This document shows positions 10,378 to 29,044 of a stretch of 59,514 nt of DNA, in pieces. The stretch's first letter is position 1. Each line of letters begins with the position of its first letter. The DNA is from Anaerotignum sp. (lineage in GTDB: Bacteria; Bacillota; Clostridia; Lachnospirales; Anaerotignaceae), in contig NZ_DAOUQB010000018.1 of the NCBI RefSeq assembly GCF_030625865.1, forward strand, positions 1 through 59,514, read 5' to 3'. The notes below the pieces were generated by a model. That model had not been told where the DNA came from and made no database searches. It saw nothing but the letters and a program-made list of their open reading frames with translations. The translations under genes were made by a program, and so were the position numbers.

Positions 10378-12645
10378 TCAACATAAAAGCTTATCCAGTC
10401 TATAAATAACAGAAGAAACTTCTGCACGAGTGGCAATCTGCTGAGGGTTAAAACAATTATTTTCATTACCATACATTAATTTTGATTCCTCTACGAAAGA
10501 AACTGCATCTTTGGCCCAAACATCTATCTGATTACTATCCGCAAATTTTTCGGACTCTGTAACTGTAATATCCCTGCCTGTTTGCTCAACATATTTATAC
10601 AGCATTACTGCAAGTTCCTCCCGTGTTATGGTAGAACTTGGACTTGCATCACCACTTTCGGTCAATAGATTATTTGCATCTGCCCATACTATGTATAAAC
10701 TGTAATTTGTGGTTAAATCCTCCACCGAATTTTCCAACTTTAATCCAACTACCTCTGCATCAACGGCTTTTCCCAACATCAATACATACATTCCTAATGT
10801 AGCGCTTTTATCTGGCTCAAACTTTTTATCTCCTGTACCCCTTGCAATTCCTTCATCGGCCAAAGCCTCAATAGAATCTCTAGCCCAGTGATTGGCTATA
10901 TCACTAAAAACAGGCTTCTCTACTTTCTTAAGCTCAATCCCATCAACAACTTCACCTAACGAATGGGCGAGCTCCTTTATCGTTGCCTCATCAAATGTGT
11001 TTCCAAAGCCTAAGTCTGAAAGAGTCTGCATATATGTATCGGCCTGCTCTCTGTTGACTAACTGCAAATATCTTTCTTTTGCTTCTTCAAAGTCTGTTTG
11101 TGCTTGCATCCAAAGCTCCCATGCCGGAATCATAGATACGGCATAGCTTATATAGTATAGCGGATCTGTGAAATTATGAATCGTTTCTGTCCAAGCATAT
11201 GACTCACCTAATTCTGCGTCAGAATATCCACTTGTCGGCGTATAACCGTACTCTAAACAAAGATTGTAGTATAATTGATTCATTTGGGATAACGTCATAT
11301 CAGGATGATGATATATAATCTGCTGAAATTCATCATGCATACATCCATCAATAATGCTTCTAATCCAACTTTTAAGTAATTTTATCTTAAGCAAATCAGT
11401 ACATTTGTCATCGCCAATCATGTCATCATAAAAATCATAAAACAAAAGTTCCAATCCTTGGGAATCTATTTCTGACAATTCCAACATCGGCAAAATATCT
11501 CTGGAGATAAAAAATCTATTATAATGCCCTGTTTCATGAACCAATATCCATACATCATTAAAATCTCCGTAAGGTTTATTGAACATAAATGGAACATTAT
11601 AATCCAGTAATAAAGATGTAAACCCGGTATCCGCCTTATTATCATCTGCTCCAATATCATAAAAACCGTGATCATACATATAGTTAAAACTTTCAAGTAA
11701 TTCAGGAAATTCTTTTTCAATAACTCCCTTTTCTCGGGAAATCAGTGTTTCAGGAGAATAGTCTAACTCATTCAAACTACTAAAATCTATATTGGTAATT
11801 ATCTCGTTTAACTTTTTATTTATTGGAGCGATATACTCCTTAACTAAAGTCGACAACGCTGTCACATCTTCCGAAGTAAAATCTCTAAAATAAGTATTCT
11901 CATAACAATAGTCTGTATAGCTTTCATATCCACAAAGCCTTGCAATCTTTGCTCGTGTTTTAACAAGATTTATATAAACTTCGCCTAGGGCAGAATTTTT
12001 ATTTTTATGGATTTCTCTAATAGCATCTTTATATATGTCTTCCGGAAGCTTTGCATTCTTAATTCCATCTAAAGTCATTGCTTCCCCATTTACAACTGCC
12101 GTATACTCCTTATTTGCAGTTTTATAATATTGGTTTATAAACTCTTTTTCCGCAGACATTAAAGAACTCAGCTCAACATCATCCGCACCAGCATCTACTT
12201 GTTGTAATATGTATGTTAACTCGCTTTCATCTAACACATCATAAACAGTACCTGCACACGGAGATTCCAAAATGATTTCTAAAGTGTCAGCTAAAGAATG
12301 TAAAATTTCCGTGTCAAGATTAAAAGAGTATAAATACTCCTCATTATATGTTGCATCTGAAGCATCCTTAGATTGCAATATTACTGCCAAAGTATATTGG
12401 GTATTAACACGATACCAAAAATCAACAAGTTTGCTGATCAAACTTTCAACGGAACTGTAATTATTCTTGTCCGCCGCTTGCGTAATAACCAAATCGGTAA
12501 CTTTATAAAATTCTGCTGGATCCACATGCTCATATTCAATTTCAGAATAGTTAATATCGGCATGTTCTGCAGCAAAAACCGTTGAAGAAAACGTTGATAT
12601 CGTAAATACCATCGCCAGCAACAGGGATACAATTCTTTTCTTCAT
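10378..12645 (-). CDS. Secreted M3-like zinc peptidase with three SLH modules
   Basis: A 755-residue exported metallopeptidase held on the cell surface. The start shows a signal peptide (KKRIVSLLLAMVFTISTFSS..AA, cleavage near residue 27). The catalytic part (about 190-560) carries HETGH (about 370-374) and a downstream Glu in LSEIDSQG (about 392), the HExxH...E zinc pattern of peptidase family M3 (oligoendopeptidase F/thimet type). Residues 580-752 hold three S-layer homology modules (FSDIANHWARDSIEALADEG; WADANNLL; FADSNQIDVWAKDAV), which bind cell-wall polysaccharide. ATG 12645 has GGAGG upstream. M3 enzymes are usually cytosolic, so a surface-anchored form is notable. It may supply peptides for the amino-acid fermentation genes nearby (inference). 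Confidence 0.85.
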   Translation of the reverse strand: MKKRIVSLLLAMVFTISTFSSTVFAAEHADINYSEIEYEHVDPAEFYKVTDLVITQAADKNNYSSVESLISKLVDFWYRVNTQYTLAVILQSKDASDATYNEEYLYSFNLDTEILHSLADTLEIILESPCAGTVYDVLDESELTYILQQVDAGADDVELSSLMSAEKEFINQYYKTANKEYTAVVNGEAMTLDGIKNAKLPEDIYKDAIREIHKNKNSALGEVYINLVKTRAKIARLCGYESYTDYCYENTYFRDFTSEDVTALSTLVKEYIAPINKKLNEIITNIDFSSLNELDYSPETLISREKGVIEKEFPELLESFNYMYDHGFYDIGADDNKADTGFTSLLLDYNVPFMFNKPYGDFNDVWILVHETGHYNRFFISRDILPMLELSEIDSQGLELLFYDFYDDMIGDDKCTDLLKIKLLKSWIRSIIDGCMHDEFQQIIYHHPDMTLSQMNQLYYNLCLEYGYTPTSGYSDAELGESYAWTETIHNFTDPLYYISYAVSMIPAWELWMQAQTDFEEAKERYLQLVNREQADTYMQTLSDLGFGNTFDEATIKELAHSLGEVVDGIELKKVEKPVFSDIANHWARDSIEALADEGIARGTGDKKFEPDKSATLGMYVLMLGKAVDAEVVGLKLENSVEDLTTNYSLYIVWADANNLLTESGDASPSSTITREELAVMLYKYVEQTGRDITVTESEKFADSNQIDVWAKDAVSFVEESKLMYGNENNCFNPQQIATRAEVSSVIYRLDKLLC

Positions 12646-12699
12646 CAAAATTTTTCCTCCGTTTCAAAACTTATCTCTTTGTCAGAAATTTTTTTATCT

Positions 12700-12868
12700 C
12701 TTCCTACAAATTGAATCGGTCAGCGAATAAAACTCTGTCAATTCACCAGGTTCATATGTGATGTCAGCGTAATGAATCTTGACATGCTCAAAGCATACAT
12801 TGGTAAAGAAAACATGGATACAGAAAATACCATAGCTAGAAACAGGGCTGTCATTCTTTTTTTATCAT
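12700..12868 (-). pseudogene. N-terminal remnant of a paralogue of the M3-SLH peptidase
   Basis: After GGAGG and ATG 12868, the strand reads a signal peptide one frame away (LFLAMVFSVSMFSLPMYA). In yet another frame comes EHVKIHYADITYEPGELTEF, which parallels EHADINYSEIEYEHVDPAEF in the intact protein. At least two frameshifts occur, and everything after about 55 codons is gone. The decayed duplicate sits directly upstream of the living copy. Confidence 0.7.
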
Positions 12869-12875
12869 ATTGTTT

Positions 12876-13147
12876 CCTCCCAGTATAATAATCTAAAAGT
12901 GCACTAACATTACTATTCCATTATATAAAGTGATTCAAGCATCAATAAAATGGTTAATTTATAATACTAACTTATAAAATAATACCTGAAATGTCAACAA
13001 AATTCGACCATTTTCGCCCAAAAAATGGATTGAATAACGAATTTTATCCCATTCAAATATTAATTTTCTTCTACGCTTTTAAGCTTAAAATAAAAAGTAT
13101 TTGGTCATCTCAATAGGAATATCTGATTTTTTCAAAAAACAAAATAA
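12876..13147. other. AT-rich intergenic stretch
   Basis: About 270 bases with no recognisable gene, repeat or RNA. It probably holds the promoter of the former tandem peptidase genes; no clear -35/-10 pair stands out among the many AT-rich candidates. Confidence 0.4.
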
Positions 13148-13188
13148 AAAAGGACGGAAATTTTTTTTAAAAAATTATTCCGCCTTTT
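13148..13188 (-). terminator. Terminator of the SSAT-like acetyltransferase gene
   Basis: AAAAGGACGGAA and TTCCGCCTTTT form a stem around an AT-rich loop, with T's on the reverse strand. It lies about 57 bases after the stop at 13245. Confidence 0.7.
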
Positions 13189-13244
13189 CAAAATTAGTCG
13201 TAAATTTTCATCCTGAGCAAATGTACATTATGGATATTCCCATA

Positions 13245-13724
13245 TTATTCAGCCAGATCTTTAAGGGTGTTCCCAGCAATGCGATAAACCGTCCAATCAC
13301 TCATAGGTTCGGCACCAAGGGATAGATAGAAATCTATGCTGGGCTTATTCCAATCAAGACACCACCACTCTAACCTGCCACACCCACGGGCAACCGCTAT
13401 TTTCGCAAGTTCCTTCAACAATGCCTTTCCATAATTTTTCCCCCTATATTCCGGCAAAACATATAAATCCTCTAAATATATTCCTGCACGGCCTAGGAAC
13501 GTAGAGAAGTTATGAAAAAACAGCGCAAAACCAACTTCTTTTCCCTCTTCCATGGCAAAAATCACTTCTGCTTTTTTCTTTTCGAATATCCATTCCTGAA
13601 TCAATTCTTCCGTGGCAATCACTTCACCTAACATCTTTTCGTATGTCGCAAGCTCTTTTATAAAGTATAAAATCTTTGCGCCATCTTTTTCGTCTGCAAA
13701 TCGAAAACCTAATTCTCTTTTCAT
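13245..13724 (-). CDS. GNAT acetyltransferase, diamine (SSAT-like) type
   Basis: A 159-residue GNAT enzyme that transfers acetyl from acetyl-CoA to an amine. The acetyl-CoA loop is LPEYRGKNYGKALL, and the C-terminal block LEWWCLDWNKPSIDFYLSLG is very like spermidine/spermine or thialysine N-acetyltransferases, including the WN..SIDFY segment. ATG 13724 (MKRELGFRFADEKDG) is chosen because GGAAC/AGAG precedes it and family N-termini begin here; an upstream frame extension to 13820 is hydrophobic and unlike the family. The true substrate may be a polyamine or a lysine analogue. Confidence 0.8.
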   Translation of the reverse strand: MKRELGFRFADEKDGAKILYFIKELATYEKMLGEVIATEELIQEWIFEKKKAEVIFAMEEGKEVGFALFFHNFSTFLGRAGIYLEDLYVLPEYRGKNYGKALLKELAKIAVARGCGRLEWWCLDWNKPSIDFYLSLGAEPMSDWTVYRIAGNTLKDLAE

Positions 13725-13900
13725 CTCTCGTTCCTTTCTTTTAACCTCAAATTCAACTATATATAAGGATATTTTACCATAATATTCCGTTATAGTAAAA
13801 CACAGTAGCACGGTAAACAAAATGGGGATACCTTAATGAAATAACTAACTGAATTTTCAACATATTTAAAAAACAAAGGGATACTTGGTCTATTGTCAAA

Positions 13901-14389
13901 TTATTTATTGAAATTCTTACTTCTTATACAATCTATAAGAATGCTGTATACGGTTTCACAAAAGCCTTCATCCTGATACCTTTCTTTTTCTGTGATTGTC
14001 CCTTGCAAATCTTGCACCAATTTTTCAACCATGTGCCTACAAGAGCTGTTTTTATCATTAATTGCAATCTCCAGCTGCATAATCCCCATATCCCCGGCTG
14101 TTAGCAAAACACTCTGCAAAAGCTTTCTCCCAATCTGTCTGCCTCTTTCCTCTGATTTTACAGCAATTTGCCAAATAAATATTTTTCGTTTTTCTGCGGA
14201 CAGGAGTGCTCCGATGTATCCCAAAACTTGACCATTCTCCTCTGCTACAAGACAAGTGGACGGAAAATACTTTCCAAGCATCCAATAAATATAATTATTA
14301 TATGATGCCACAAAAGGCTCCCCCTGTATTAAAATCTCTCTTACGGCCTTGATATCTTCTTTTTTTTACGTTCTAATGTACAAAAGCAT
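13901..14389 (-). pseudogene. GNAT acetyltransferase with an in-frame TAA at codon 8
   Basis: A GNAT domain with YIYWMLGKYFPSTCLVAEEN, IFIWQIAVKSEERGRQIGRK and LEIAINDKNSS resembles EctA-type diaminobutyrate acetyltransferases and related GNATs. An ATG at 14389 (binding site GGGAGAGG) reads MLLYIRT, then TAA at 14368-14366, then KKEDIKAVREILIQGEPFV in the same frame, which is a proper GNAT N-terminus. So a single nonsense codon interrupts the natural frame. Translation could restart at GTG 14311, which happens to follow GGGGGAG, giving 136 residues without the first helix. Probably inactive or impaired. Confidence 0.65.
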
Positions 14390-14416
14390 CCTCTCCCTTA
14401 AATACTCACTTTTCTT

Positions 14417-14660
14417 CTACATTTGTAAATTTTCACCATACCAAATCAATACACAAAGGGTAGAGAATACAAATAATATAAGGCTAAATGAAACAATGTA
14501 CCCACCAAAGGCACCTGCCACCTCTTGGAATGCAATTGATGCTACGATGTATATTGTTGCCATAAAAGGAACTAGTTTTTCAGTAAAGCTACCGAGCCTC
14601 TTAACTCCTCCGATTACAACGATACCTGTAATTACCATAACAGCTAATATGTTGTCAACT
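14417..14660 (-). pseudogene. AGCS-family Na+/alanine symporter remnant
   Basis: The 73-codon frame MVITGIVVIGGVKRLGSFTE...KLVPFMATIYIVAS matches the central 'GGLKRISxVxEKVVPFMA' block of AGCS symporters; compare the intact gene at 24190-25623. It then jumps to a late segment, AFGGYIVSFSLILFVFSTL. Roughly 85% of the protein is missing, including the N-terminal signature, so this is a deletion product. Confidence 0.75.
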
Positions 14661-14746
14661 AAAAAATTCTTCTTTGCTCTTTAAAAAAGGGCGTGGCAAA
14701 TTAACTAGGCTAAATTAGAAAGCCCAGCTAGATTGTTTTGATGCGA

Positions 14747-15045
14747 TTAGGCAGCGTAAGACTCTAAGACTCTGGCATAGTAAATTCTAAGGAACTTATT
14801 CATGGCTGCCACTTTTGCAACCATTTTAGGTTTTCCTTGGGCTTCTTTCTTTAGCATAAAATCAAATACAGCGGTATCTTTCTTTGGTGGCTTCAATTTC
14901 AATGCCATCATTGCCTCAAAGCATAATTTTCTCAACTGAGACGAGCCACGCTTAGAAATATGTCGTTTTGTTCCATCGTATATACCAGATTTATTTGGTG
15001 GGGCATCAAGGCCGGCATAGGCAACAAGAGCACTTCCGCTATGAA
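14747..15045 (-). mobile_element. IS110-family transposase, 3' fragment
   Basis: An uninterrupted reverse frame reads SALVAYAGLDAPPNKSG, HISKRGSSQLRKLCFEA, and a tail with MNKFLRIYYARVLES. This is the C-terminal Transposase_20 domain of IS110/IS1111 elements, which includes the conserved AGLxP and SKRGxxxLRxxL motifs. The N-terminal DEDD catalytic domain (about 200 residues) is absent. At about 15050 it joins DNA carrying an unrelated GGGAGG-ATG start. Confidence 0.8.
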
Positions 15046-15174
15046 AGCATCGTACATCAAACGAACCTCCCTTCCTTTAAAATAACAAAATTCAAGAATA
15101 TTTCATTGCAAAATCCTATCAAATTTAAGTTAACTTATATAACCCTTTTTAACAATGCAAAAAAAGTAAAAAAG

Positions 15175-15203
15175 TTGCCATAAATTTTTCTTTTTGCTAT
15201 AAT
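15175..15203 (+). promoter_or_regulatory. Sigma-A promoter of the XRE-cupin regulator
   Basis: TTGCCA (15175-15180), 17 bases and TATAAT (15198-15203) form a near-consensus promoter 57 bases upstream of the regulator ATG at 15260. Confidence 0.7.
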
Positions 15204-15259
15204 AAAAGCATTTGAAATAGCATTTTATAACCATACTTCGTAAGGCAGAGGAGATTGAA

Positions 15260-15811
15260 ATGTATAGTATACCGCCGGATATCGGAAAAGAAATGAAAAG
15301 AATACGAACAGAAATGAGAATCAGCCTTGATACCGCAGCCAGACTTACGGGTGTTTCTAAGGCTATGCTTGGACAGATCGAAAGAGGAGAATCTGTCCCT
15401 ACCATATCAACCCTTTGGAAAATATCAACCGGATATAAAGTTACTTTTTCCAATTTTATTTCTCAGCCATCAGATGAAAATAACATATTAAGTATTGGTG
15501 ATATCTATCCAATTAAAGAGGAAAATGGAGAAATGCTCCTCTACAATATTTTCCCCTTTGATCCTATTTCAGGTTTGGACTTTTTGCAAATACACATGAA
15601 CCCCCATTGTCGGCATGTGTCTTTTCCACATACAAACGTATTAAACGAATACATTGTTGTAATTAAAGGACAGTTGGAAATGACAATAAACGAAAATGTA
15701 TATTTATTAAAAGAAGGCGATGCCATGTCCTTTCATGGAGATGTGAACCATATCTATGCTAACCCTTCCAATGATGAAACTATATTCCATAATATAATCA
15801 GATATAAATGA
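15260..15811 (+). CDS. XRE HTH - cupin transcriptional regulator
   Basis: A 183-residue protein with an XRE helix-turn-helix at residues 9-65 (SLDTAARLTGVSKAMLGQIE, then VPTISTLWKIS) and a C-terminal cupin_2 barrel at about 108-180 (SFPHTNVLNEYIVVIKGQLE, GDAMSFHGDVNHIYAN). This PuuR/SinR-like type senses a small ligand in the barrel. GCAGAGGAG precedes the ATG. It lies 380 bases upstream of the glycyl radical enzyme on the same strand and is its likely regulator (inference from position). Confidence 0.88.
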   Translation: MYSIPPDIGKEMKRIRTEMRISLDTAARLTGVSKAMLGQIERGESVPTISTLWKISTGYKVTFSNFISQPSDENNILSIGDIYPIKEENGEMLLYNIFPFDPISGLDFLQIHMNPHCRHVSFPHTNVLNEYIVVIKGQLEMTINENVYLLKEGDAMSFHGDVNHIYANPSNDETIFHNIIRYK

Positions 15812-16042
15812 AAAATGTTGAAAGTGGCAGAGAACAATATAAATGTTCTTTGCTCTTTTTTTGTTAAGTCACCATTAAATTATAAAAATAATTTACTCAC
15901 CCCTTAGTTTTTAAATCTTATAGCAGCATTTCTTTTCATTTTTCGCAACTTTCTACATTATGCGATAAAATATTTTTTATGTATTTCTCATAAAAATCAC
16001 TAAGTTTTTTAAAAATAATTATAGATATTGCAAGTATTTATA

Positions 16043-16073
16043 TTGACATTTCTGTAAATCTGTGTCATATTAA
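16043..16073 (+). promoter_or_regulatory. Candidate promoter of the glycyl radical enzyme operon
   Basis: TTGACA at 16043-16048 is a perfect -35 box. CATATT (17-base spacing) or TATTAA (19-base spacing) could serve as -10. The start codon lies 120 bases further on, leaving a leader that contains the palindromes at 16087-16130. Confidence 0.5.
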
Positions 16074-16086
16074 AAATAGATTTTGA

Positions 16087-16130
16087 GCGTTATAGCATAC
16101 ATATATATTTTAAAATATTCGTTATAACGC
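16087..16130 (+). promoter_or_regulatory. Candidate operator: paired GCGTTATA / TATAACGC sites
   Basis: GCGTTATA (16087-16094) and TATAACGC (16123-16130) form an inverted pair. The second is part of the perfect palindrome CGTTATAACG (16120-16129). They lie just downstream of the likely promoter, where a bound repressor such as the XRE-cupin protein would block transcription. Confidence 0.5.
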
Positions 16131-16194
16131 AAAGTTTTAAATAATATTTCTATTGTTGTTCTCGTTTATTTCATTTCAAATTAGGAGGGTCACT

Positions 16195-18567
16195 ATGAAT
16201 ACAACACCACGAATTGAACGGTTAAGACAAAATTACGTAAATTCAAAACCGTCTGTGTGCATTGAAAGAGCTCGAATTTTCACCGAATCCCATATGTGTA
16301 CAGAAGGTATGCCTACCCCTATTCGCAGAGCACAGGCCTTTTATGATTTTTGTAATGAATTTGAAATTAAAATATTTGAAGACGAGTTAATTGTTGGTAC
16401 CGCCGGCAAATTTAGAAGAAGCGGTATCTTAACACCTGAATTTTCCTGGAAATGGGTGGACAAGGAAATGGATATGTTTGATAAACGCCCCCAAGATCCT
16501 TATGAAATGACAGATGTTCAAAGAGATTATGTGCGAAATAATATTTTTCCATATTGGAAAGGGCAATCCTTAGAAGAACATTTTCTTTCCATTCTTCCAA
16601 AAGAAACAGCGAAAATTGCCGTTGACACCGGAATTGTAGATAATGACTCAAAGTGGCGCCAAGCAGTTGGTGAAACAACTCCGGACTATCAGGACGTTCT
16701 GTTTCCTTCTGGCTTCCAAGGGATTTTAAAGGAAGCAGAAGAAAACTTGGCAAAATTAGACTATGCAAATCCTGATGATTTAGAGAAAATCATTTTCTAC
16801 AAATCAACCATTTTAACAAGCAAAGGCATCATGCGCTTTGCTGAAAGATATGCAGATTTAGCAGAACGAATGGCAAAAGAAGAAAAAGATAAAGAAAGAA
16901 GCAATGAGCTCCTTAAGATTTCAAAGGTTTGCCGTAATGTTCCTGCAAATCCGCCAAAATCTTTCCACGAGGCAATTCAATTTGTTTGGTTTGTTCAATT
17001 GGGTGCAATTATTTCCGAAAACCCATTGGCTCTTAACCCCGGAAGATTCGATCAATATATGTTCCCTTATTATGATGCAGATATCAAAGCAGGTACAATG
17101 ACTAAGGAAGATGGGGAAGAACTGGTACAGGCTCTTTGGCTGAAATTTTCCGAATGGGTATGGACTATTTCCGCAAACACAACAGGTTATTTTGCAGGCT
17201 ATAATCAGTTCCAAAACCTTACAGTTGGGGGTAGAAAAAGAGATGGCTCTGATGCTACCAATGCGCTTTCCTATATTTGCCTCGAAGCCACGGATAAGGT
17301 TAGAACCCATCAACCCGGTTTAAGTGTACGGATTCATTCTGATTGCCCGCAAAAATTCTTAGACGCCGTAACTGATCTTGTAAGCAAAGGCACCGGCTTC
17401 CCCGCAATCCACAATGACCAAGCAGGTGCACAAATGCTTCTTCAGGCAGGCTATGAACCAGAAGATGCCAGAGATTGGAGCAATTGCGGTTGCGTAGTCC
17501 CCCATTTCCGTAAAACAGGGCAATGGACAGCGGCGGTAAATATTAACTTTGCAGCTGCATTGGAATATGCCTTAAATGAAGGAAAAAGCAGGCTAACCGG
17601 AGAAAAAATGGGTCTGGATGCAAAGCCAGTTTCTGAATATAAATCCTACGAAGAAGTAAAAAACGCAACTTTGGAACAAATGAAAAATTTAATTTATCAT
17701 AGTGTAGTCGCTACCGTTGTAGCTCAAAAACTACATACACAACTTGTTCCCCGCCCCTTCCTTTCCACTTGTGTTGAAGATTGCATGAAAAACGGAAAAG
17801 ATCTTTCACGGGGTGGCGCTCATTATAACGTGGGTCCTGTTCTTACAGGGATCGGCCTTGCTGTAGTCGCAAACTCCCTTGCTGTAATAAAAAAGCTCGT
17901 TTTTCAAGATAAAATTATAACTATGTCTGAATTAAACGATGCTTTAAATGCCAATTGGGTAGGCTATGAAGATTTAAAAGCAAAAGCCTTAAGCGTTCCA
18001 AAGTACGGCAACGATGATGATTATGTGGATGCTATTGCAAGAGAAATTGCCAACTATTACTACGAAGAAACCAGAGCCCATAAAGATATTTTTGGTTCGA
18101 AATTTAACTCTGCTTTCATGGGCATCTCCAATTATATCCCAACAGGTAAGGTTGTGGGTGCAACCCCTTGCGGAAGAGAAGCAACAAAGCCAATTACAGA
18201 AGGTGTTTCTCCTTATGCCGGAAGTGATATCTCAAGCCCTCTTGCGGCAATGCGTTCCAGCGCAAAAATGAATCACGATGTACATACAGGCGGTACACTA
18301 CTTAATCTTCGCCTAAGCGAAGATATGGTAAAAACGCAAAAAGGCAAAAGAGATCTTGGAAATATCATCCGTGCATATTTTTCACTTGGCGCTTTCCATG
18401 TTCAGTTTAACACGCTTTCTACAGAAGTACTTCGTAAAGCCCAGAAAAGTCCGGAAGATTACAAAGACCTTTTGGTACGTGTTGCAGGATACAGCACGCA
18501 ATTTGTAAATCTATCCCCAGAGATGCAAGAAGCAATCATTGCAAGAACAGCACACACAAACATGTAA
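16195..18567 (+). CDS. Glycyl radical enzyme of unassigned substrate (pyruvate formate-lyase superfamily)
   Basis: This 790-residue anaerobic radical enzyme starts at ATG 16195, after AGGAGGG. The barrel fingertip loop NCGCVVPH places the thiyl Cys at 433 (a second Cys is at 431). The glycyl motif RVAGYS places the radical Gly at 765. The Cys-Gly spacing of 332 and the length match CutC, propanediol dehydratase and 4-hydroxyproline dehydratase. In those eliminases, and in hydroxyphenylacetate decarboxylase, a Glu follows two residues after the Cys (CxE). Here that residue is Val435, so the usual general base is missing. No proC, microcompartment or decarboxylase small-subunit gene adjoins. 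Nearby aromatic and amino-acid genes do not settle the substrate. The activase is next. Confidence 0.85.
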   Translation: MNTTPRIERLRQNYVNSKPSVCIERARIFTESHMCTEGMPTPIRRAQAFYDFCNEFEIKIFEDELIVGTAGKFRRSGILTPEFSWKWVDKEMDMFDKRPQDPYEMTDVQRDYVRNNIFPYWKGQSLEEHFLSILPKETAKIAVDTGIVDNDSKWRQAVGETTPDYQDVLFPSGFQGILKEAEENLAKLDYANPDDLEKIIFYKSTILTSKGIMRFAERYADLAERMAKEEKDKERSNELLKISKVCRNVPANPPKSFHEAIQFVWFVQLGAIISENPLALNPGRFDQYMFPYYDADIKAGTMTKEDGEELVQALWLKFSEWVWTISANTTGYFAGYNQFQNLTVGGRKRDGSDATNALSYICLEATDKVRTHQPGLSVRIHSDCPQKFLDAVTDLVSKGTGFPAIHNDQAGAQMLLQAGYEPEDARDWSNCGCVVPHFRKTGQWTAAVNINFAAALEYALNEGKSRLTGEKMGLDAKPVSEYKSYEEVKNATLEQMKNLIYHSVVATVVAQKLHTQLVPRPFLSTCVEDCMKNGKDLSRGGAHYNVGPVLTGIGLAVVANSLAVIKKLVFQDKIITMSELNDALNANWVGYEDLKAKALSVPKYGNDDDYVDAIAREIANYYYEETRAHKDIFGSKFNSAFMGISNYIPTGKVVGATPCGREATKPITEGVSPYAGSDISSPLAAMRSSAKMNHDVHTGGTLLNLRLSEDMVKTQKGKRDLGNIIRAYFSLGAFHVQFNTLSTEVLRKAQKSPEDYKDLLVRVAGYSTQFVNLSPEMQEAIIARTAHTNM

Positions 18568-18580
18568 TAAAAAAATAATT

Positions 18581-18606
18581 CGCCTGCTCCCACTTCGGGG
18601 CAGGCG
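18581..18606 (+). promoter_or_regulatory. Intercistronic hairpin between enzyme and activase
   Basis: CGCCTGC and GCAGGCG (with further CCC/GGG pairing) form a strong GC stem just after the enzyme stop. There is no T run after it, so it looks like an mRNA-stability or differential-expression element: the enzyme is needed in far larger amounts than its activase. Confidence 0.55.
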
Positions 18607-18626
18607 TCTAAAAATAGGAGATCTTT

Positions 18627-19535
18627 ATGGGAGAATGTTCAAATACCGGTGTAGTTATCCAAATGCAAGACTATTCTATTCATGACGGTGATGGCGTAAG
18701 GACAACCATATTTCTTGCAGGCTGCAAACTGCGCTGTCAATGGTGCGCCAATCCCGAATCTTGGACACCTAAGAGAAAATTAGTATATTACAAACATAAA
18801 TGCACTAATTGTATGAAATGCTCCCTTGCTTGTCCAATGAATTTAGTTCCTTGCAAAATGGAACGTCCCAACGATGTATGTATTACCTGTGGAAAATGTG
18901 TAGATGTTTGTCCCCAAAAGGCCCTGGATATCGCCTGTGTCGAAAAAAATTCAGAGGACTTGTTAAAAAAAATTGAAAGAGATGCTCTGTTTTTTCGATT
19001 TACAGGAGGTGGCGTTACTTTTTCCGGTGGAGAGCCTTTTTTGCAGCATAAATTTATGAGAGTTTTATTGGATAGGTTTGAAGAATTGGGTATAGATAGC
19101 TGGGTTGAAACCTGCGGATACTTTGATTTTGAATCAGTGAAAGATTTACTGCCGAAATTCAGCCATATTTTTATGGATATCAAGCATATGGACAGTAAAA
19201 AACATAAAGAGTTCACTGGCTGTGGCAATGAATTGATATTGGAAAATGCAAAAAAAATATATGCTACCGGCGTCCCAATGACAATTCGCATACCAACAAT
19301 TGCAGAGGTTAATTTAGACGACAAAAACCTTGAACAAACGGCACAGTTTATCAATAAAAACTTACCCACAGCTGATGTGGAATTGCTCCCATACCATGAA
19401 CTTGGTAAAGCGAAATATATTTCTTTAGGTATAGAAGATAAATTTGTCAAATTCACAACCCCAACAGTTGAACAACTAAACCATGCATCTGAAATTTTTA
19501 AAAACCATGGCATAGAAATAGTTGAGTATAGATAA
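18627..19535 (+). CDS. Glycyl radical enzyme activating enzyme (radical SAM)
   Basis: A 302-residue radical SAM activase that uses S-adenosylmethionine and a [4Fe-4S] cluster to place the radical on Gly765 of the preceding enzyme. The radical SAM motif is GCKLRCQWCANPE (CxxxCxxC, about residues 31-38). Two extra ferredoxin-type cluster motifs follow at about 54-95 (CTNCMKCSLACP; CITCGKCVDVCP), as in activases of hydroxyphenylacetate decarboxylase, benzylsuccinate synthase and CutC, but not in PflA. A glycine-rich SAM-binding block, TGGGVTFSGGEP, follows. A GGAG site precedes the ATG. Confidence 0.92.
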   Translation: MGECSNTGVVIQMQDYSIHDGDGVRTTIFLAGCKLRCQWCANPESWTPKRKLVYYKHKCTNCMKCSLACPMNLVPCKMERPNDVCITCGKCVDVCPQKALDIACVEKNSEDLLKKIERDALFFRFTGGGVTFSGGEPFLQHKFMRVLLDRFEELGIDSWVETCGYFDFESVKDLLPKFSHIFMDIKHMDSKKHKEFTGCGNELILENAKKIYATGVPMTIRIPTIAEVNLDDKNLEQTAQFINKNLPTADVELLPYHELGKAKYISLGIEDKFVKFTTPTVEQLNHASEIFKNHGIEIVEYR

Positions 19536-19661
19536 AATTTGGAAATAAGCTAGTCTTTTCTTATATTTAAAAAAGGGTTCGATAAAAGGACTCTTTTTCT
19601 TTTTCACAATTTTGCAATCGCAATCAGCCCACAAAATCCAATGGATTCTTTAAATAAAAAA

Positions 19662-19710
19662 CCCCCGCTCTTCTTACTCTGCTGAAAAGCAGAAATATTA
19701 TCGGAGCAGG
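19662..19710 (-). terminator. Terminator of the HD-GYP gene
   Basis: On the reverse strand CCTGCTC...GAGCGGG encloses a second hairpin (TCTGCTTTTCAGCAGA) and is followed by GGTTTTTTATTT. It lies just past the stop at 19724. Confidence 0.6.
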
Positions 19711-19723
19711 AAGCTTTCATTGC

Positions 19724-20731
19724 TTAAGTTATTATTTTTACAATAGTCAAATTAAAAACCTTCATTAGATCTATTTTTTCTTTGGTTTTGGTAATGACAA
19801 CCTTGGGTCTTAAGTGATGTACATGGTTTTGCTTAACCACGATCGCCTCTTGCCCATCAGAAAGCTCCACGGTAATTCCAGTGGGATAAGGAGAAATATA
19901 CTCCATGGCTTTTTTCACACAGCTTACGTCAAACATAATGTATGAATTGGACATTAGATATTCAAGAGCATCCGCTGGATTCATGGCTTTTCTATAAACC
20001 CTGTTGGAAACCAAAGCATCATATACATCACATACATGGATAATCTTTGCATATATATGAATATGTTTTCCTATTAGACTACGAGGATACCCGCTCCCAT
20101 CTTCATTTTCATGATGTGAAAGAACAGCATTCTTTACCAGGCCTGAAATCATAAAATTATCTTTGATAATGTTGTACCCCTCTTGGGAATGGGAACGAAT
20201 AATATTCATTTCTTCATCTGTCAATTTTTCTTTTTTATTTAAAATATCAATGCTTATGTTTACCTTTCCAATATCATGAAGCAACGCTGCCTCTGAAAGC
20301 TCTTTCAATTGGGTATAGTTTAAGCCCATACCAATTCCTAAAATAACCGATAAAACCGCAACATTAATGCAGTGTATATAAGTATAGTTATCAAAGGATG
20401 CAATGTTTACCATATCAACGGAAACATCAGATTTATTGAGCAATTCATCTACAATGGAATGCGCCATAAGCCTACAAGAATCAAGATTAAACGATTTCAG
20501 CGCTTGTACGGTACTTCTTTTAAGTTGCTCGGAAAGCAATTCAGTTACAATAATTTCGTTGGAAATGTCATCATAAATATATAGACCCGCATACCCAAGG
20601 ACAGCTAATTTTTGAATATAAGCACGTTTCAAAATCGTATTCGCATTAAGAAGGATGCTTCCGGTATCGTTATACACAGGAATCGCCAATATTGAGTTTT
20701 CTTTTATTTGTTGTAATGGTAAATATCGCAT
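19724..20731 (-). CDS. HD-GYP domain phosphodiesterase
   Basis: A 335-residue cytoplasmic protein with a C-terminal HD-GYP domain, a type that usually hydrolyses cyclic di-GMP. Motifs are LLHDIGKV (HD pair), LSHHENEDGSGYP (the HHExxDGxGYP signature) and CDVYDALVSNRVYR. The first 100 residues form an unrecognised sensory or dimer region (RYLPLQQIKENSILAIPVYND) often found in Clostridial HD-GYP proteins. It stands alone, next to a chemoreceptor gene on the same strand, so it may link environmental signals to motility or biofilm state (inference). Confidence 0.9.
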   Translation of the reverse strand: MRYLPLQQIKENSILAIPVYNDTGSILLNANTILKRAYIQKLAVLGYAGLYIYDDISNEIIVTELLSEQLKRSTVQALKSFNLDSCRLMAHSIVDELLNKSDVSVDMVNIASFDNYTYIHCINVAVLSVILGIGMGLNYTQLKELSEAALLHDIGKVNISIDILNKKEKLTDEEMNIIRSHSQEGYNIIKDNFMISGLVKNAVLSHHENEDGSGYPRSLIGKHIHIYAKIIHVCDVYDALVSNRVYRKAMNPADALEYLMSNSYIMFDVSCVKKAMEYISPYPTGITVELSDGQEAIVVKQNHVHHLRPKVVITKTKEKIDLMKVFNLTIVKIIT

Positions 20732-21150
20732 CTACTGCCACCTAATTACTTTCTCTTATCTACGAATTTGCCTCTGAATATCCACACTAATTTGTTACAA
20801 CAACTGTTAAATACACATCTTGCTCTGGCTTTCTACATATTTCTGTAGTATTACATTAAAAGTTTATAAGTATAACATTTCAAATTTTTTGAAACTTCAA
20901 AATTTGGTAAATATTTTATTTGGCGAACAATAACAAAAGGAAAACCAACTGGAAATCAAAACAAGTTACATTTTCTTATGAAAAAATGTAAACTTTTGTA
21001 AAAATATAAACAAAAATTATTGTACTTTATTATGACTTTTCTGTCGAATCTATTTTACCAAATATCTACAAAAAATGCAAATTACATTTAAATTGTTTTA
21101 AATATAATTCTTATGATATACAGGAGCTCTAATTCATTACTTCCCCTCAT
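20732..21150. other. Intergenic region upstream of the HD-GYP gene
   Basis: About 420 AT-rich bases. It must hold the HD-GYP promoter on the reverse strand, but no convincing -35/-10 pair, riboswitch or repeat was identified. The right end meets the long hairpin at 21151. Confidence 0.4.
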
Positions 21151-21207
21151 AATTGTATCTAATAAAAAATCACCATGTTCGATGGTGATTTTTTATTAGA
21201 TACAATT
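21151..21207. terminator. 57-base perfect hairpin downstream of the chemoreceptor gene
   Basis: Two 26-base arms (21151-21176 and 21182-21207, beginning AATTGTATCTAATAAAAAAT) are exact complements around the 5-base loop GTTCG. The A/T runs inside the arms would give a T tract on either strand, so it can act as a bidirectional terminator. Its length and perfection are unusual for that role alone. Confidence 0.75.
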
Positions 21208-21228
21208 ATCTTAATTTTTAAAAGCTTT

Positions 21229-23271
21229 TCAATTTAAATAATTATCATCCAAACCATCTGATGGAGAATGGGCTTCCTCTTCTTGAATGGGATTGTCTGA
21301 TATATTTCTTAGCCTAAAGCTGCTTACAAGCTCTTGCAGCAATTGAGCTTGACTAGTTAGCTCCTCACTTGCCGCAGCACTTTCCTCAGCGGTAGCACTA
21401 TTTGTTTGCACAACAGCAGAAATCTGCTCAATTCCTGTAGTAATCTGGATAATAGATCTAGTTTGGTGTTCAGACGCAGAAGAAATTTCACCTATCTTCT
21501 GTGATACAAGCGTGGTTTTTTCAACCGCGGAATCCAAAGAATGTGCAGCCAAATCAACAATCTCTTTCCCTTGATTAACAGCTACAATTGCACTTTCAAT
21601 AAGTACTGTTATATTTTTTGCCGCTTCAGAAGATTTTTGGGCAAGGTTACGAACCTCATCAGCCACAACAGCAAATCCTTTTCCTGCTGACCCTGCCCTT
21701 GCAGCCTCAATGGCAGCATTGAGTGCAAGAATATTTGTTTGAAAAGCGATAGCATCAATTGTTTTTATAATATTACTAATTTCAGTAGAAGCTTTTGTGA
21801 TATTACCCATGGCTTCCACAATATCTTTCATATGCTCATTGCTTTGAGCAATACCTTCACTTGCATTAAATGAAAGTGTATTTACAGCCCTTGCATTATC
21901 AGTATTTCGCTTTGCCTGTTCCGAAATTTCTACAATAGTTGCAGATACCTCTTCAATGGAAGAAGCCTGTTCCGTAGCGCCTTGGCTTAGTGACTGCGCT
22001 CCATTGGAAACTTGTTCAGAACCAACGAATACCTGCTCTGCCACATGGGTAATATGGGAAAGTGTTGAATTCTGCTGATTTATTACATCTTTTAAAGCAG
22101 TTAAAATCCCACTATAGTCTCCTTGATACGCATCGTCATTCGTACTACTAACAGTAAAATTACCATCCGCAAGATTACTGAGTATATATTTTATATCGTT
22201 AATCACCATGTTCTGACTTTGGACTATAAATTGCATTGCCTCCGTCAAAATGCGTGTTTCATCTTTAGCCGTTACCATAGGCACTTCTGATGAAAGGTCG
22301 CCCTCACCAAGACATTTCAATCTGTCCGCACAAGCAGTAATTGGTGTTGCAATTTTTGTTCCAAAAGACCTCATTATGAAAAAAGCAATCAATATAAGCC
22401 CAAGGCATATAAGCGTACATATTATGGCATTTGTATATGTAGACTGCAAAAAATCTTTGTCATCAACATATATTCCCAGTGACCATCCATCAGTGGAATC
22501 AATCGGAGTCATAAAAATCATTTTCTTTATATTTGCAAACTCAATCTCTCCAAAACAAGGTTCCCCATTTACAGCAGTTTGCTCAACAACTGCAAGTTTT
22601 TTCATACTGGGGTCATTTGCAGAAAGTTCAATATTATTTTGACCAGAAATCACCTGGTTATAATCACCATTGGCAATGGTGGTTCCTTCTTCATTAATAA
22701 CATAAGCTCTACCACTTTCTCCAAATTCAATTTCATTTGTAATATTTGAAAGATATGTTCCATCCAAAATGCCCATAACGCAGCCTTCGATAAAACCATC
22801 CTGAATGCCATCCTTCCACAAAGGCGCCGATACAAGTATTTGTGCCCCTTTGCCATCAGAAGTAGTTCTTGGATAATCAAAGTATACCTCACCCTTCATT
22901 GCCCGCTGAAACGCTTCCGTATTTGCATAATTATTACCGTCAAGTCCCTTACCATTTTTATCCGTTATGGTTGAAGATAGAAAATCATTTTTTGACGTAG
23001 TGCTGTCCAAAATCTTCTGCTTGTCTGCCACTGCACTATTACTGTCGACAAGAACACTATTAACACCAAGTTCTTCTACGGCATTTTCTACAATAAGTAG
23101 CCTGCCTTCCACAACATTAGCTGCCGTAGCCGTAGTTTCTTCAAAGATCTCTCTTACTGTTTTCTTCGTGTTTGCAATACTTGTTAATGTTAAAATCAAA
23201 GTAATTAACGCCATTGAAATAAACAAAATCAATGACGTAGATAAAACAATTTTCTTTTTTAGGCTATGCAT
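21229..23271 (-). CDS. Methyl-accepting chemotaxis protein
   Basis: A 680-residue transmembrane chemoreceptor. TM1 lies at residues 6-30, followed by an extracytoplasmic dCache-type sensor to about 280 ([14 protein letters not shown]-like ligand pocket motifs; [14 protein letters not shown]), TM2 at about 281-303, HAMP to about 356, and a cytoplasmic signalling domain. The conserved hairpin tip reads [20 protein letters not shown], and [16 protein letters not shown] follows. Ligand unknown; dCache receptors often bind amino acids, which would suit this amino-acid-fermenting neighbourhood. No CheW-binding or methylation partner genes are in the window. Confidence 0.93.
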
Positions 23272-23618
23272 TTTGTACCTCCTCTTAAATTTGAATCATT
23301 TGTCGTGTTTTGTAACTTGAAAAATTTCCCAATAAACATTATCCCATATATGTTATCTCGTCTTTAATTGAAAAAAATAAAGCCTTATTACATTAAAATC
23401 CCAAATAACATGTTAAAATCCCATTAAGTTCTGTTAAAAATGTATAAATTCCCTATTCCCCTTCGTGTCTATGCAAGAAAAAACCTACAGATACCCGGCA
23501 TTTATTTCCTTTAAGCGCTAACAAAAAAAGCCTCTGCCCACGCAAAAGCCCGCATCACACACAATATTGTAAAACATCTAATTCTTGTCTTTCTAAATGA
23601 CAAAAAACGCTCCCAGTA
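23272..23618. other. Upstream region of the chemoreceptor gene with a direct repeat
   Basis: The 347 bases contain TTAAAATCCCA twice (23393-23403 and 23413-23423, 20 bases apart), about 120-150 bases upstream of the chemoreceptor start. This could be a regulator site. No gene or RNA recognised. Confidence 0.35.
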
Positions 23619-23940
23619 CTATTTCCGCAATAACACCCTCTGTGTTGACTCTCTTGGAAAACAAGCATATATGTACGCAGGAAAAATCACCATAACAGGA
23701 ATAGCCAACCCTGTAATCCAAAAATAAATAGTATCTCCTATATTTATTGTAAAAGCAAAACCAAAGGCACCAGACATCATAACTGCAAGTCTAGTCCCAA
23801 AAATTAATCCCTTATCTTCCGCTTCTTTGTTAATAACCCGTTTTATGATATCGTGCTGAAAATTGCATTCCAATCATCGGCACATTGCGGATCATTAAGC
23901 TGATGGCAACAGGTATTCTTATCCATTCATTTTAGTAGGA
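23619..23940 (-). pseudogene. Unidentified membrane-protein remnant
   Basis: An 84-codon frame (23873-23619) shows two hydrophobic segments (LAVMMSGAFGFAFTINIG; IYFWITGLAIPVMVIFPAYI). Upstream, in another frame, NEWIRIPVAISLMIRNVPMI appears to be the preceding part, so a frameshift lies near 23870. It reads like the end of a polytopic transporter, but the family was not recognised. It is probably part of the same decayed segment as the racemase remnant next to it. Confidence 0.4.
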
Positions 23941-23949
23941 CGATACGGA

Positions 23950-24130
23950 ATATGACAATATACCTCTTCTTCGCCACATTGTAAAAACTCTGACATCGCC
24001 GAAGTTATATCCGTTAGCTTTCAAAACAGCCATAACCTTCACGTTTTGTTTAAGTAAGCTTTTTATTTTAAAAGTTATACTTTGAATTTTCAATAGAAAT
24101 TTTTACCCATGCCCTCTTAATGAAATCCAT
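23950..24130 (-). pseudogene. Alanine racemase N-terminal remnant
   Basis: ATG 24130 opens MDFIKRAWVKISIENSKYNF, then TAA. One frame over, KSLLKQNVKVMAVLKANGYN continues to FGDVRVFTM. This is the start of an alanine-racemase-type fold: RAWxxIxxxxxxxNxxxL, then the PLP-lysine block MAVxKANAYGxGD. The rest, about 300 residues, is gone. It lies directly downstream of an Na+/alanine-type symporter, so a D/L-alanine uptake and racemisation pair once existed here (inference). Confidence 0.65.
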
Positions 24131-24189: not shown

Positions 24190-25623
24190 TTAGTTTTTCA
24201 TATCTTGCTCTATAGTTTCAAATGAAACCTTTTCCGGATTTTTTCCTGCTTTTAATTCAGGGATAAATCGTTTCCAGAAATCATTGTATAATCTGAATAT
24301 TTCTTTCCGTTTTGCATAAATAAATGTCAAAGTAATGATTACATACATGGCACTTAAAATATCCGTAACTGCCCAAAGCATGTCCGCTTTTATATTGTAG
24401 AAGACAAGGGCTGGAATTAAGAAATATACCATATAAACCGGAGTGAATTTTTTATTCAGCTCTGTATCTCCAAGGGCATAATTGACTGACTTTGCACAAC
24501 TATAATACATACCAATAATCGTAGTCCATGCAAAAATGGAAATTGCACTGGCCATAAAATAACCGCCAAACTTACCATAAGCTACTTTAAACGCAACTGT
24601 AGTTAACTGCGCACTGGTAATACCGGGGAAATCAATATATGAATTGGTTAGAATAATCGTTAATGCTGTAACTGAACAAACTACAATGGTATCTAAGAAA
24701 ACTTCACCCCATCCCCAAGAAGACTGACGTACAGGATGATCTGTTCGTGCTGCTGCATGGGCAACAATACCATAACCGGTTCCCGCATCATTGGAATAAA
24801 GCCCACGGGCAATTCCGTATCTTACCGCATCTCTAACGGTAGCACCTGCGAAACCACCAACTCCGGCCATAGGACTAAAAGCACTTTTAAAAATCAGTGC
24901 AATACCGCTAGGAACGGCATGAATATTCATAATTAAAATTCCAATTCCAGACAATATGTAAGCCAGAGCCATAAAAGGTACTACTTTTTCCATAACACCG
25001 GAGATTCTCTTTAACCCACCTGCAATTGTTGCAAAGCATGAAACACCAATTACAACAACGGAGATAATGGGAGGAATTTGAAATGCTTCATATAAAGAAC
25101 TGGTTACTGATTCTGTTTGAACCGCGTTCGTCCATGGTCCAAAAACAAATACAAATACAGCAAGTATAATGGAACCTGTTTTCCAGCCAAGGGCATTCTT
25201 CATAACGAACGACCTGTCACAAAGATATTCATCCATTGACTTTTCATACTTTACTCTGTATCTTTGACCTAAAATAATTTCACATGCTTTTGTACTCATT
25301 CCCAACAATCCTGACATCCACATCCAAAAGATTGCGCCAGGTCCACCCATGGTGATTGCAGTTGCTACACCACCAATGTTCCCTACGCCAATGGTATTGG
25401 CCATAGCGGTACATGCCGCTGCAAAACCCGAAACTGTTCCCTCTCCTTCGCCGCCTTTGAACATTTTACCAAATGTGTTTTTGAAATGAAACTTTATTTT
25501 CGTAATGTACGCAAATCTAAATTTAATTGTAAGATAAAGTCCTGTTCCCACCAATGCAATTGTCATAGGTGTTCCCCATAAAAAATCTGAAATCGCCCAT
25601 AATACTTTTAAGATATTATCCAT
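24190..25623 (-). CDS. Na+:alanine/glycine symporter, AGCS family
   Basis: A 477-residue polytopic membrane protein (10-11 TM) of the alanine/glycine:cation symporter family. The signatures are AMANTIGVGNIGGVATAITM (about residues 72-91) and GPGAIFWMWMSGLLGMSTKACE, followed by GGLKRISGVMEKVVPFMA. It imports a small amino acid with Na+. It lies 52 bases downstream of the PLP gamma-lyase-family gene on the same strand, so it may import that enzyme's substrate rather than alanine (inference). Confidence 0.93.
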   Translation of the reverse strand: MDNILKVLWAISDFLWGTPMTIALVGTGLYLTIKFRFAYITKIKFHFKNTFGKMFKGGEGEGTVSGFAAACTAMANTIGVGNIGGVATAITMGGPGAIFWMWMSGLLGMSTKACEIILGQRYRVKYEKSMDEYLCDRSFVMKNALGWKTGSIILAVFVFVFGPWTNAVQTESVTSSLYEAFQIPPIISVVVIGVSCFATIAGGLKRISGVMEKVVPFMALAYILSGIGILIMNIHAVPSGIALIFKSAFSPMAGVGGFAGATVRDAVRYGIARGLYSNDAGTGYGIVAHAAARTDHPVRQSSWGWGEVFLDTIVVCSVTALTIILTNSYIDFPGITSAQLTTVAFKVAYGKFGGYFMASAISIFAWTTIIGMYYSCAKSVNYALGDTELNKKFTPVYMVYFLIPALVFYNIKADMLWAVTDILSAMYVIITLTFIYAKRKEIFRLYNDFWKRFIPELKAGKNPEKVSFETIEQDMKN

Positions 25624-25675
25624 CTTATAAAAACCCCTCCGTTTTAATAAAAACTTGATCTGTAACGCATTATAC

Positions 25676-26845: not shown

Positions 26846-26918
26846 CTAACCCACCGCTTTCTTGATTTTTCTTTAACAAAATCCTAATTCTTATACCTAC
26901 TATAAGGTCAATTAGTAC

Positions 26919-28986: not shown

Positions 28987-29044
28987 TTTTTTTACCCTAT
29001 TAGTGTGGTGAATTCATTTTACAATCTAACTTATATGAAACGCA

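Follow-up and report, generated by a model that had tools for sequence, protein, structure and literature searches.

A glycyl radical enzyme family in which valine replaces the CxE glutamate: a candidate branch of the ammonium-binding enzymes

The 59,514-nucleotide stretch of Anaerotignum sp. DNA analysed here (the window) encodes a glycyl radical enzyme (GRE) in which the glutamate of the CxE motif is replaced by valine, and which belongs to a conserved and monophyletic family, here called the CxV family. The explanation that we consider the most likely, at about an even chance, is that the window enzyme is a catalytically intact GRE and that its family forms an uncharacterised branch among the ammonium-binding GREs, using Glu160 in place of the CxE base to act on a small cationic amine. 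Since the acid thought to be essential for the usual GRE reaction is here a valine, the family probably catalyses a different reaction. The features of the locus are as follows.

15260..15811, + strand: XRE-cupin transcriptional regulator, 183 aa (Pfam HTH_3 and Cupin_2; PDB 1y9q, E 9.7e-32)
16043..16071, + strand: sigma-70-like promoter match, TTGACA-17-CATATT, 5' of the operator (consensus match only)
16085..16098, no strand assigned: second, degenerate operator-like copy, AGCGTTATAGCATA
16118..16131, no strand assigned: predicted operator TTCGTTATAACGCA, with the core GCGTTATAACGC at one mismatch
16195..18567, + strand: GRE of the CxV family, 790 aa (translation; Pfam PFL-like and Gly_radical; AlphaFold; Foldseek)
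16672..16674, + strand: codon of Glu160, at the position of CutC Asp216 and HypD His160 (alignment; E in 47/47 family loci)
17482..17505, + strand: Cys loop NCGCVVPH, residues 430-437, with C431, thiyl C433, and V435 replacing the CxE glutamate (translation, alignment; 47/47 distinct loci)
18487..18489, + strand: codon of Gly765, the predicted glycyl radical, in RVAGYS (translation; G in 47/47 family loci)
18627..19535, + strand: radical-SAM GRE activase, 302 aa, with two ferredoxin-type motifs (TIGR02494 above cut-off; motifs)

The enzyme and its family

The GRE open reading frame starts with ATG at 16195, immediately 3' of an AGGAGG, and ends with the stop at 18567; its product carries the domains PF01228 and PF02901, and its AlphaFold model has a pLDDT of 92.2. 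Translation reproduced the coordinates and motifs of the 790-residue protein described in an earlier note on this DNA, with C433 and G765 in place, and confirmed that the residue two positions after C433 is V435. The hallmarks of the superfamily, the RVxGY loop and the central thiyl cysteine, are present in all 47 family loci, and the CXE motif of the GRE eliminases (GD, PD, CutC, HypD, IslA) is replaced by C433-V434-V435.

The family set comprises 47 distinct loci of 58-100% identity, the window locus included. Both Val435 and Glu160 are present in every one of them, and therefore Val435 is no quirk of a single protein. C431 and C433 are equally conserved (47/47), K153 and R155 are kept in all 46 rows covering these positions, as is S152 in the 46 rows that cover it, and position 449 is never Tyr, being N in 45/47. 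The comparison set was made up of 61 non-family GRE rows, one of them a duplicate, of which 55 have Glu at column 435; of the six others, three are PFL-type rows (a label assigned here from their CC motif) with Ser, two have Gln, and the last is a 514-aa fragment that is misaligned. Residue 160 is H in 48 of the 61 rows, D in the CutC-type rows (n=2 only) and E in 8iof and 8id1, which are named N-methyl-cis-4-hydroxyproline dehydratases from their PDB titles.

Named carriers span Bacillota, Pseudomonadota and Spirochaetota. They include Intestinibacter bartlettii, Terrisporobacter mayombei, Peptoclostridium acidaminophilum, Acidaminobacter and Anaerotignum, anaerobes known from the gut and from amino-acid fermentation, and, among the Proteobacteria, Cohaesibacter and Vibrio sp. 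HA2012. The family is probably isofunctional. Among the top-ranked papers of an open-access literature search, none described a GRE family of the CxV kind; the subscription literature may carry an earlier notice.

In a tree of 31 rows the CxV family (12/12 family rows) is monophyletic with support of 100/100, and it forms a clade with CutC and the N-methyl-4-hydroxyproline dehydratases (100/98), to all of which Asp or Glu at residue 160, and not the usual His, is common. The branching order within this clade has weak support (family with CutC, 63/24; AU p 0.28 for the family with the N-methyl-4-hydroxyproline dehydratases), and the window GRE falls outside the 100/100 branch of the latter. It reached no NCBIfam equivalog cut-off, and passed that of the PFL2/glycerol dehydratase subfamily barely (TIGR01774, 679.1 against 678.2 bits). 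By the CXE criterion this is not a standard eliminase, as had been proposed: it lacks the motif given for these enzymes in PMC7077986, and it lies in a fully supported clade of its own. The best characterised match was CutC, at about 40% identity, which keeps the glutamate; a highly similar characterised cluster without it, which would have told against the earlier note, was not encountered. The suggestion of a new class holds as far as the separate clade is concerned, for which the sets searched gave no member that has been characterised; that the reaction is new is a reasonable inference only.

The active site and its possible chemistry

The N-methyl-cis-4-hydroxyproline dehydratases share E160, C431, D151, K153, W428 and N281 with the CxV family, but keep the CxE glutamate (CGCVETN) and are 35-38% identical to the window GRE. 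The likeness to HypD lies in the GRE fold and in the activase, which scores 302.9 bits with the HypD activase model NF043069, below its cut-off of 425. HypD residues His160, Asp278, Ser334 and Glu436 correspond to Glu, Leu, Phe and Val in the window GRE; the set H160, D278 and D339 of trans-4-hydroxy-L-proline dehydratase is E160, L278 and Q338 here, and the score with NF043068 for that enzyme is 610 bits against a cut-off of 1100. By analogy with homologous structures (HypD; PMC7077986), Glu160 would lie close to Val435. In CutC, as described in PMC12451663, the two equivalent acids, Asp216 and Glu491, interact electrostatically with choline at its cationic group.

In the explanation favoured here, the CxV family would be one of three branches, beside CutC (choline) and the N-methyl-4-hydroxyproline dehydratases. 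Its Glu160 would bind a cationic or methylated amine and might also take a proton from it. The other carboxylate has been lost; this is the CxE base, to which deprotonation of the hydroxyl of the substrate is ascribed. The activase would generate the Gly765 radical, which would then yield the Cys433 thiyl radical; this could abstract hydrogen from the carbon adjacent to the amine. Glu160 would serve as acid and base, and cleavage of a C-N bond (or of another C-X bond) would take place without the usual hydroxyl-derived ketyl step, the hydrogen then being handed back from Cys433. A bolder version, which we put forward tentatively as possible and somewhat unlikely, is a new class of GRE reaction, in which an eliminase fold without the CxE base would use the position-160 carboxylate alone in amine-directed rather than ketyl chemistry, for C-N (or C-S) cleavage of a methylated or zwitterionic amine whose site of hydrogen abstraction has no neighbouring hydroxyl; the system would be controlled by a repressor of its own that senses a metabolite.

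The regulator, its operator and the neighbourhood

Across 43 mapped and 4 added loci, the only recurrent partners of the GRE are the activase and a regulator, usually of the XRE-cupin type. The activase was found near the GRE in 43/43 mapped loci, and by eye in the 4 added ones. The window activase combines a radical-SAM motif, CxxxCxxC, with two ferredoxin motifs of the form CxxCxxCxxxC; the latter, which the earlier note had mentioned, are indeed present, but they carry little weight as a distinguishing mark because they are missing from the activase in 10 of the 43 loci (strict pattern), and most GRE activases hold extra ferredoxin-type clusters according to PMC11528403.

The closest solved structure to the regulator by sequence is 1y9q, matched over its full length, and we presume that the regulator resembles E. 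coli SutR/YdcN. In 33/47 family loci an XRE-cupin homologue is encoded no more than 5 kb from the GRE. The palindrome GCGTTATAACGC (at most 2 mismatches) was found 5' of the GRE or the regulator in 24 of the 33 loci with such a regulator and in none of the 12 without (Fisher p 1e-5, a test that treats related loci as independent, and for which two regions were searched where the regulator is upstream and one elsewhere). It ranks first among all 4,096 12-bp palindromes, matching 15/46 loci at no more than 1 mismatch, where the next unrelated palindrome matches 7; in a further control 30 shuffled palindromes match 0-2 loci, against 15/42 for the operator motif.

The window operator is the only match to TGCGTTATAACGCA with at most 1 mismatch in its genome (reversed control, 0). 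Over 33 genomes or records the motif gave 19 such matches and the reversed control 9. Ten of these 19 belong to the GRE operons themselves, which leaves 9, as many as in the control; 7 of them lie inside predicted ORFs and 2 between ORFs (L175, L169). With 2 mismatches there are 203 places against 215 for the control (28 genomes or records). A second target of the operator is therefore unsupported, since the sites away from the GRE match control numbers. One of the 7 sites inside ORFs, that in L174, falls within a short ORF of doubtful standing, 201 bp ahead of an ORF of 607 aa, and the site in L169 is 336 bp before a short gene that by eye resembles Hfq. The sigma-70-like consensus is found 22 times in the region, with 15.6 expected (sd 4.1), and there was no Rfam match in 12600-24000.

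The two-domain architecture, the palindromic site and the very small predicted regulon are all shared with local XRE-cupin repressors (1y9q; the PauR/PsdR group of PMC7901475), from which the window regulator differs in its putative target, the GRE operon. This dedicated regulator would bind GCGTTATAACGC and would probably release the operon when given the substrate or a related metabolite, and regulator, enzyme and activase would then form a self-contained module.

A comparison of gene neighbourhoods had been suggested as a guide to function. The regulator and activase do recur, but the other neighbours are too scattered to point to a substrate. L041 has ProV/ProW-like genes, with a divergent ABC ATPase of the betaine/proline/choline type (TIGR01186 above cut-off) about 0.8 kb upstream, which would suit the amine reading; a DUF5058 gene with a partner is found in L121 and L135, with an M20 hydrolase in L121 and relatives in L037 and L134; LivKHMGF-like branched-chain ABC genes (mostly by eye) are at L034, L036 and L048 and sugar-type ABC genes (by eye) at L055 and L040; and an NlpA/MetN-type transporter and an AEC-type carrier are near family loci. 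Because transporter types vary in this way, context gives no proof of the amine reading, and the assignment of a substrate from the DUF5058/M20, Liv, Met, NlpA, ProV/ProW or sugar ABC links was dropped.

The earlier note was also right that ProC and microcompartment genes are not in evidence: no such domain was found in 39 window proteins by Pfam (E up to 1e-3 or 1e-6) or in 5 more by NCBIfam only, in a scan of ORFs of at least 100 aa, other than 9049-9393, 9586-9924 and those antisense to called genes. However, since neighbours vary across family loci, these absences carry little weight. No small iron-sulfur subunit gene was recognised among the same ORFs, a size range in which a short subunit gene could be overlooked.

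Alternative readings

A rather unlikely alternative is that the substrate is a zwitterionic amino compound connected with sulfur amino acids, for instance a methionine derivative or a beta-substituted amine like taurine; Glu160 would then deprotonate the amine, and the reaction would require no hydroxyl. It would suit the conserved K153 and R155, and 1y9q is reported with D-methionine bound in PMC7901475; by this analogy the regulator, if it hints at any ligand, would favour an amino acid over a methylated amine, although the same text describes XRE-cupin pockets as differing among regulators. Methionine genes adjoin the operon at L045 (MetF TIGR00676, O-acetylhomoserine sulfhydrylase TIGR01326 and MetA NF047918, all above cut-off) and MetF does so at L050, and an NlpA/NIL-type transporter and a Cys/Met PLP enzyme are nearby at L057. 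These links are few, however: L045 and L050 look like one lineage, the PLP enzyme reaches no methionine gamma-lyase cut-off, and on a rough estimate chance alone may account for about as many Cys/Met PLP genes.

It is also unlikely that the enzyme is a divergent choline TMA-lyase, or another ordinary eliminase, that tolerates Val435. CutC is its closest characterised relative and closest solved structure (PDB 5fau, 5a0u; 38-40% identity; Foldseek TM 0.98, 1.4-1.5 Å, choline-bound structures included), with an acidic residue at 160 and the Cys and Gly loops retained. Of the 13 active-site residues of CutC listed in PMC12451663, the window GRE keeps five (C489, F389, F395, T502, I700), D216 becomes E, and seven are changed (Y208S, H209K, T334L, M487C, E491V, Y506N, L698M), the equivalent positions being invariant across the family except N449 (45/47). 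Thus in the set Y208, D216, E491, T502 and Y506, which becomes S152, E160, V435, T445 and N449, three residues are lost family-wide, T502 is kept and D216 is conservatively replaced. Against this alternative, too, the TIGR04394 score is 761.7 bits with a cut-off of 1050, no microcompartment domain accompanies the gene among the scanned window proteins, and the CXE glutamate is essential in HypD and IslA, according to PMC7077986 and PMC8473560.

A PFL-type C-C lyase (2-oxo acid formate-lyase), with C431 and C433 as its cysteine pair, is more doubtful still. Both cysteines are conserved, PFL-type rows likewise have no Glu, the window contains 2-oxo acid metabolism genes, and PFL, too, needs no partner beyond its activase. 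But the cysteines of PFL are adjacent (C418-C419; PMC10591478), giving CC and not CGC; C431 occurs also in the CxE-bearing N-methyl-4-hydroxyproline dehydratases; where the three PFL-type rows have arginines, at columns 160 and 449, the window GRE has Glu and Asn; the TIGR01255 score is 144.9 against 994.2; and PFL-type rows, used as the outgroup, branch far from the family. An aryl- or alkylacetate decarboxylase (of the 4-hydroxyphenylacetate or indoleacetate type) is very improbable: NCBIfam models match across part of the core and several carriers are presumably amino-acid fermenters, but the scores fall far below cut-off (NF033718, 421.7 against 1100 bits; NF033715, 347.4 against 1150), the known enzymes of this type retain the CxE Glu, and the ORFs scanned (100 aa or longer) included no recognisable small-subunit gene.

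For many of the GREs that abound in the gut no function is known, as a 2024 review states (PMC11574389), and the CxV family may conceal a new anaerobic reaction. A conserved family without CxE in the clade of CutC makes the role of the CxE base directly testable. Furthermore, the regulator-operator pair offers a practical route to the substrate, as the ligand that releases it is likely to be the substrate or a near relative.

The CxV enzyme and its relatives

The earlier note had read the frame, the Cys-loop, the radical glycine and an activase with two ferredoxin-type motifs from the sequence, and all of these proved correct:

16195-18567, + strand: glycyl radical enzyme (GRE) of 790 aa, its translation carrying NCGCVVPH at 430-437 and RVAGYS around G765
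18627-19535: activase, recognised by a radical-SAM motif and two ferredoxin-type motifs

An AGGAGG ribosome-binding sequence precedes the ATG of the GRE, and Pfam places PFL-like and Gly_radical domains in the protein. No NCBIfam equivalog cut-off was reached; the broad TIGR01774 was passed by 0.9 bits.

A scan of genome contigs gave 26 close relatives (loci L034-L057, L076 and L103; 58-93% identity) among the best 80 of 93 relatives. Of 36 genomes from the taxonomic family to which the window belongs, 16 (its own among them) carried members at 60-93% identity (own 100%), and of the 24 genomes of other taxonomic families in the same relatives' sample none did. With strict E-values, the class sample held members in 4/391 genomes and the phylum sample in 5/398, the own genome being included in each; plasmid records contributed Acetoanaerobium noterae and Peptoclostridium acidaminophilum as carriers. 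After removal of duplicates there were 47 distinct loci, counting the window's. V435, E160, C431, C433, L278, N281, F333, F339, T445, M642 and G765 are invariant in all 47, N449 is found in 45, and S152, K153 and R155 are present in each of the 46 loci covering those positions. The missing glutamate is a trait of the whole family and not of a single protein.

The activases are less conserved than the GREs, with 33-45% identity at loci whose GRE identity does not exceed 70%. Ferredoxin motifs are missing from those of 10 of 43 loci (L043, L045, L048, L050, L054, L115, L122, L123, L125 and L130); these activases are 33-40% identical to that of the window, and their GREs 61-69% identical to the window GRE. 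Activases may have been swapped. In Intestinibacter bartlettii DSM 16795 the activase beside the GRE (L047:12382-13284) is split into two ORFs of 132 and 115 aa, and the GRE gene is split into three ORFs in L103 and two in L045; either sequencing error or decay could account for these.

Regulator, predicted operator and gene neighbourhood

The XRE-cupin regulator encoded upstream of the window GRE has as its best solved match Vibrio cholerae 1y9q (full length, E 9.7e-32); the homologue from Vibrio HA2012 matches 1y9q with E 5.6e-58. PMC7901475 reports 1y9q with D-methionine bound, and describes Pseudomonas XRE-cupin regulators as highly specialised repressors that act locally and have palindromic sites. 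In 33/47 loci an XRE-cupin homologue is encoded no more than 5 kb from the GRE. In L051, L114, L135 and L136 the GRE is adjoined by a regulator from one other cluster, annotated as GntR in L114, and by eye a regulator of that cluster is also beside the GRE in L182.

The roughly 260 bp preceding the GRE were scanned with all 4,096 12-bp palindromes, as was the corresponding stretch before the regulator where that gene leads the operon. The palindrome GCGTTATAACGC ranked first, occurring in 15 of 46 loci with at most one mismatch; the neighbouring ACGTTATAACGT followed with 11 loci and the next unrelated palindrome with 7. With up to two mismatches between -150 and +60, the motif was found in 15/42 loci, as against 0-2 for each of 30 shuffled controls. 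At the same tolerance it was found in 24 of the 33 loci with a cupin regulator, being absent from the other 9, and in 0 of 12 without one (Fisher p 1e-5, uncorrected for kinship or for the larger region searched where the regulator comes first in the operon). Loci with the site occur in Bacillota, Alphaproteobacteria, Vibrio and Spirochaetia. In the window it is placed as follows:

16118-16131: predicted operator, 3' of a TTGACA-17-CATATT match

This is the sole one-mismatch site in its genome. Other genomes hold nine additional one-mismatch sites, as many as the control, and these yielded no partner gene, so the regulator-GRE-activase module is most simply taken as self-contained.

No constant pathway gene surrounds the GRE across family loci. 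The Cohaesibacter marisflavi locus has a ProV-type ATPase above its cut-off and a ProW-like permease nearby; methionine synthesis genes adjoin L045, MetF adjoins L050, an NlpA/NIL-type transporter and a Cys/Met PLP enzyme adjoin L057, and by eye sugar-type transporters lie near L040 and L055. These scattered neighbours are in part amino-acid or amine related, and no substrate is drawn from them.

The window itself also holds other gene sets. At 24190-33766 an AgcS-type carrier and two Cys/Met PLP enzymes lie with a 2-oxoacid:ferredoxin oxidoreductase set, and together look like amino-acid fermentation, perhaps of methionine. A 2-oxoacid/acetoin dehydrogenase-type operon (E1, E2, E3 and an NAD-kinase-like gene) with a sigma-54 activator occupies 38363-47149, and a beta-eliminating lyase of tryptophanase or tyrosine phenol-lyase type, an SNF-family transporter and a RidA-like protein occupy 3365-6971.

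Phylogeny, fold and active-site pocket

The family forms one side of a fully supported branch in both a quick tree (94 rows, 37 of the family) and a careful tree (31 rows, 12 of the family). In the careful tree it makes a clade with the choline lyase CutC and the N-methyl-4-hydroxyproline dehydratases (support 100/98), within which the branches can be joined in more than one order (63/24 for family plus CutC, AU p 0.28 for the alternative); the quick tree favours CutC as sister at 84, a join flagged as long-branch, with the N-methyl-hydroxyproline group outside the pair. The AlphaFold model of the window GRE (pLDDT 92.2) has CutC structures as its top Foldseek matches (TM 0.98, 38-40% identity), followed by glycerol and propanediol dehydratases and by 8iof/8id1, named from their PDB titles as N-methyl-cis-4-hydroxy-D- and -L-proline dehydratases. 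The window's genome encodes a second GRE (L031, contig C13, 49490-51832, - strand), which matches 8iof, the N-methyl-cis-4-hydroxy-D-proline dehydratase from Clostridium sp. FS41, at 1701 bits across 781 aa.

Among the 61 non-family GRE rows of the alignment, one of them a duplicate, the CxE column holds Glu in 55, Ser in 3 (PFL-type), Gln in 2 and Asp in 1, a misaligned fragment. The two Gln rows, L025 (GCVQS) and L098 (GCSQI), are on long branches. Columns 160/435 read His/Glu in 47 non-family rows. The N-methyl-hydroxyproline dehydratase group contributes three Glu/Glu rows from two proteins, both CutC-type rows are Asp/Glu and the PFL-type rows Arg/Ser, the rest being single odd cases; among the rows of the alignment Glu/Val is confined to the family. 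Position 160 adjoins position 435 in a homologous structure, since His160 of HypD lies 2.5 Å from the CxE glutamate according to PMC7077986, which also records the H160Q and E436Q variants as being without activity.

PMC12451663 lists 13 residues of the CutC pocket, of which it assigns Asp216 and Glu491 to the cation of the substrate. All 13 were mapped through the alignment, the named residue being found in both CutC-type rows each time; the D. alaskensis numbering is our own assignment from motif and spacing. Five positions keep the CutC residue (F389-F333, F395-F339, C489-C433, T502-T445 and I700-I644) and eight are substituted (D216-E160, Y208-S152, H209-K153, T334-L278, M487-C431, E491-V435, Y506-N449 and L698-M642). 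The family thus retains one of the two pocket carboxylates and loses both tyrosines, which is evidence against an ordinary choline lyase, a reading that we disfavour.

The pocket suggests instead that the substrate would be a different cationic or zwitterionic compound, one offering no hydroxyl to position 435. The best mechanism, to which we give about an even chance, is that of a GRE acting on a cationic amine, Glu160 being the one carboxylate left in the pocket; the bolder reading, in which the family represents a new reaction class, is held only tentatively. That these enzymes form a real and conserved GRE family, uncharacterised and lacking the CxE glutamate, is a conclusion in which we have good confidence.
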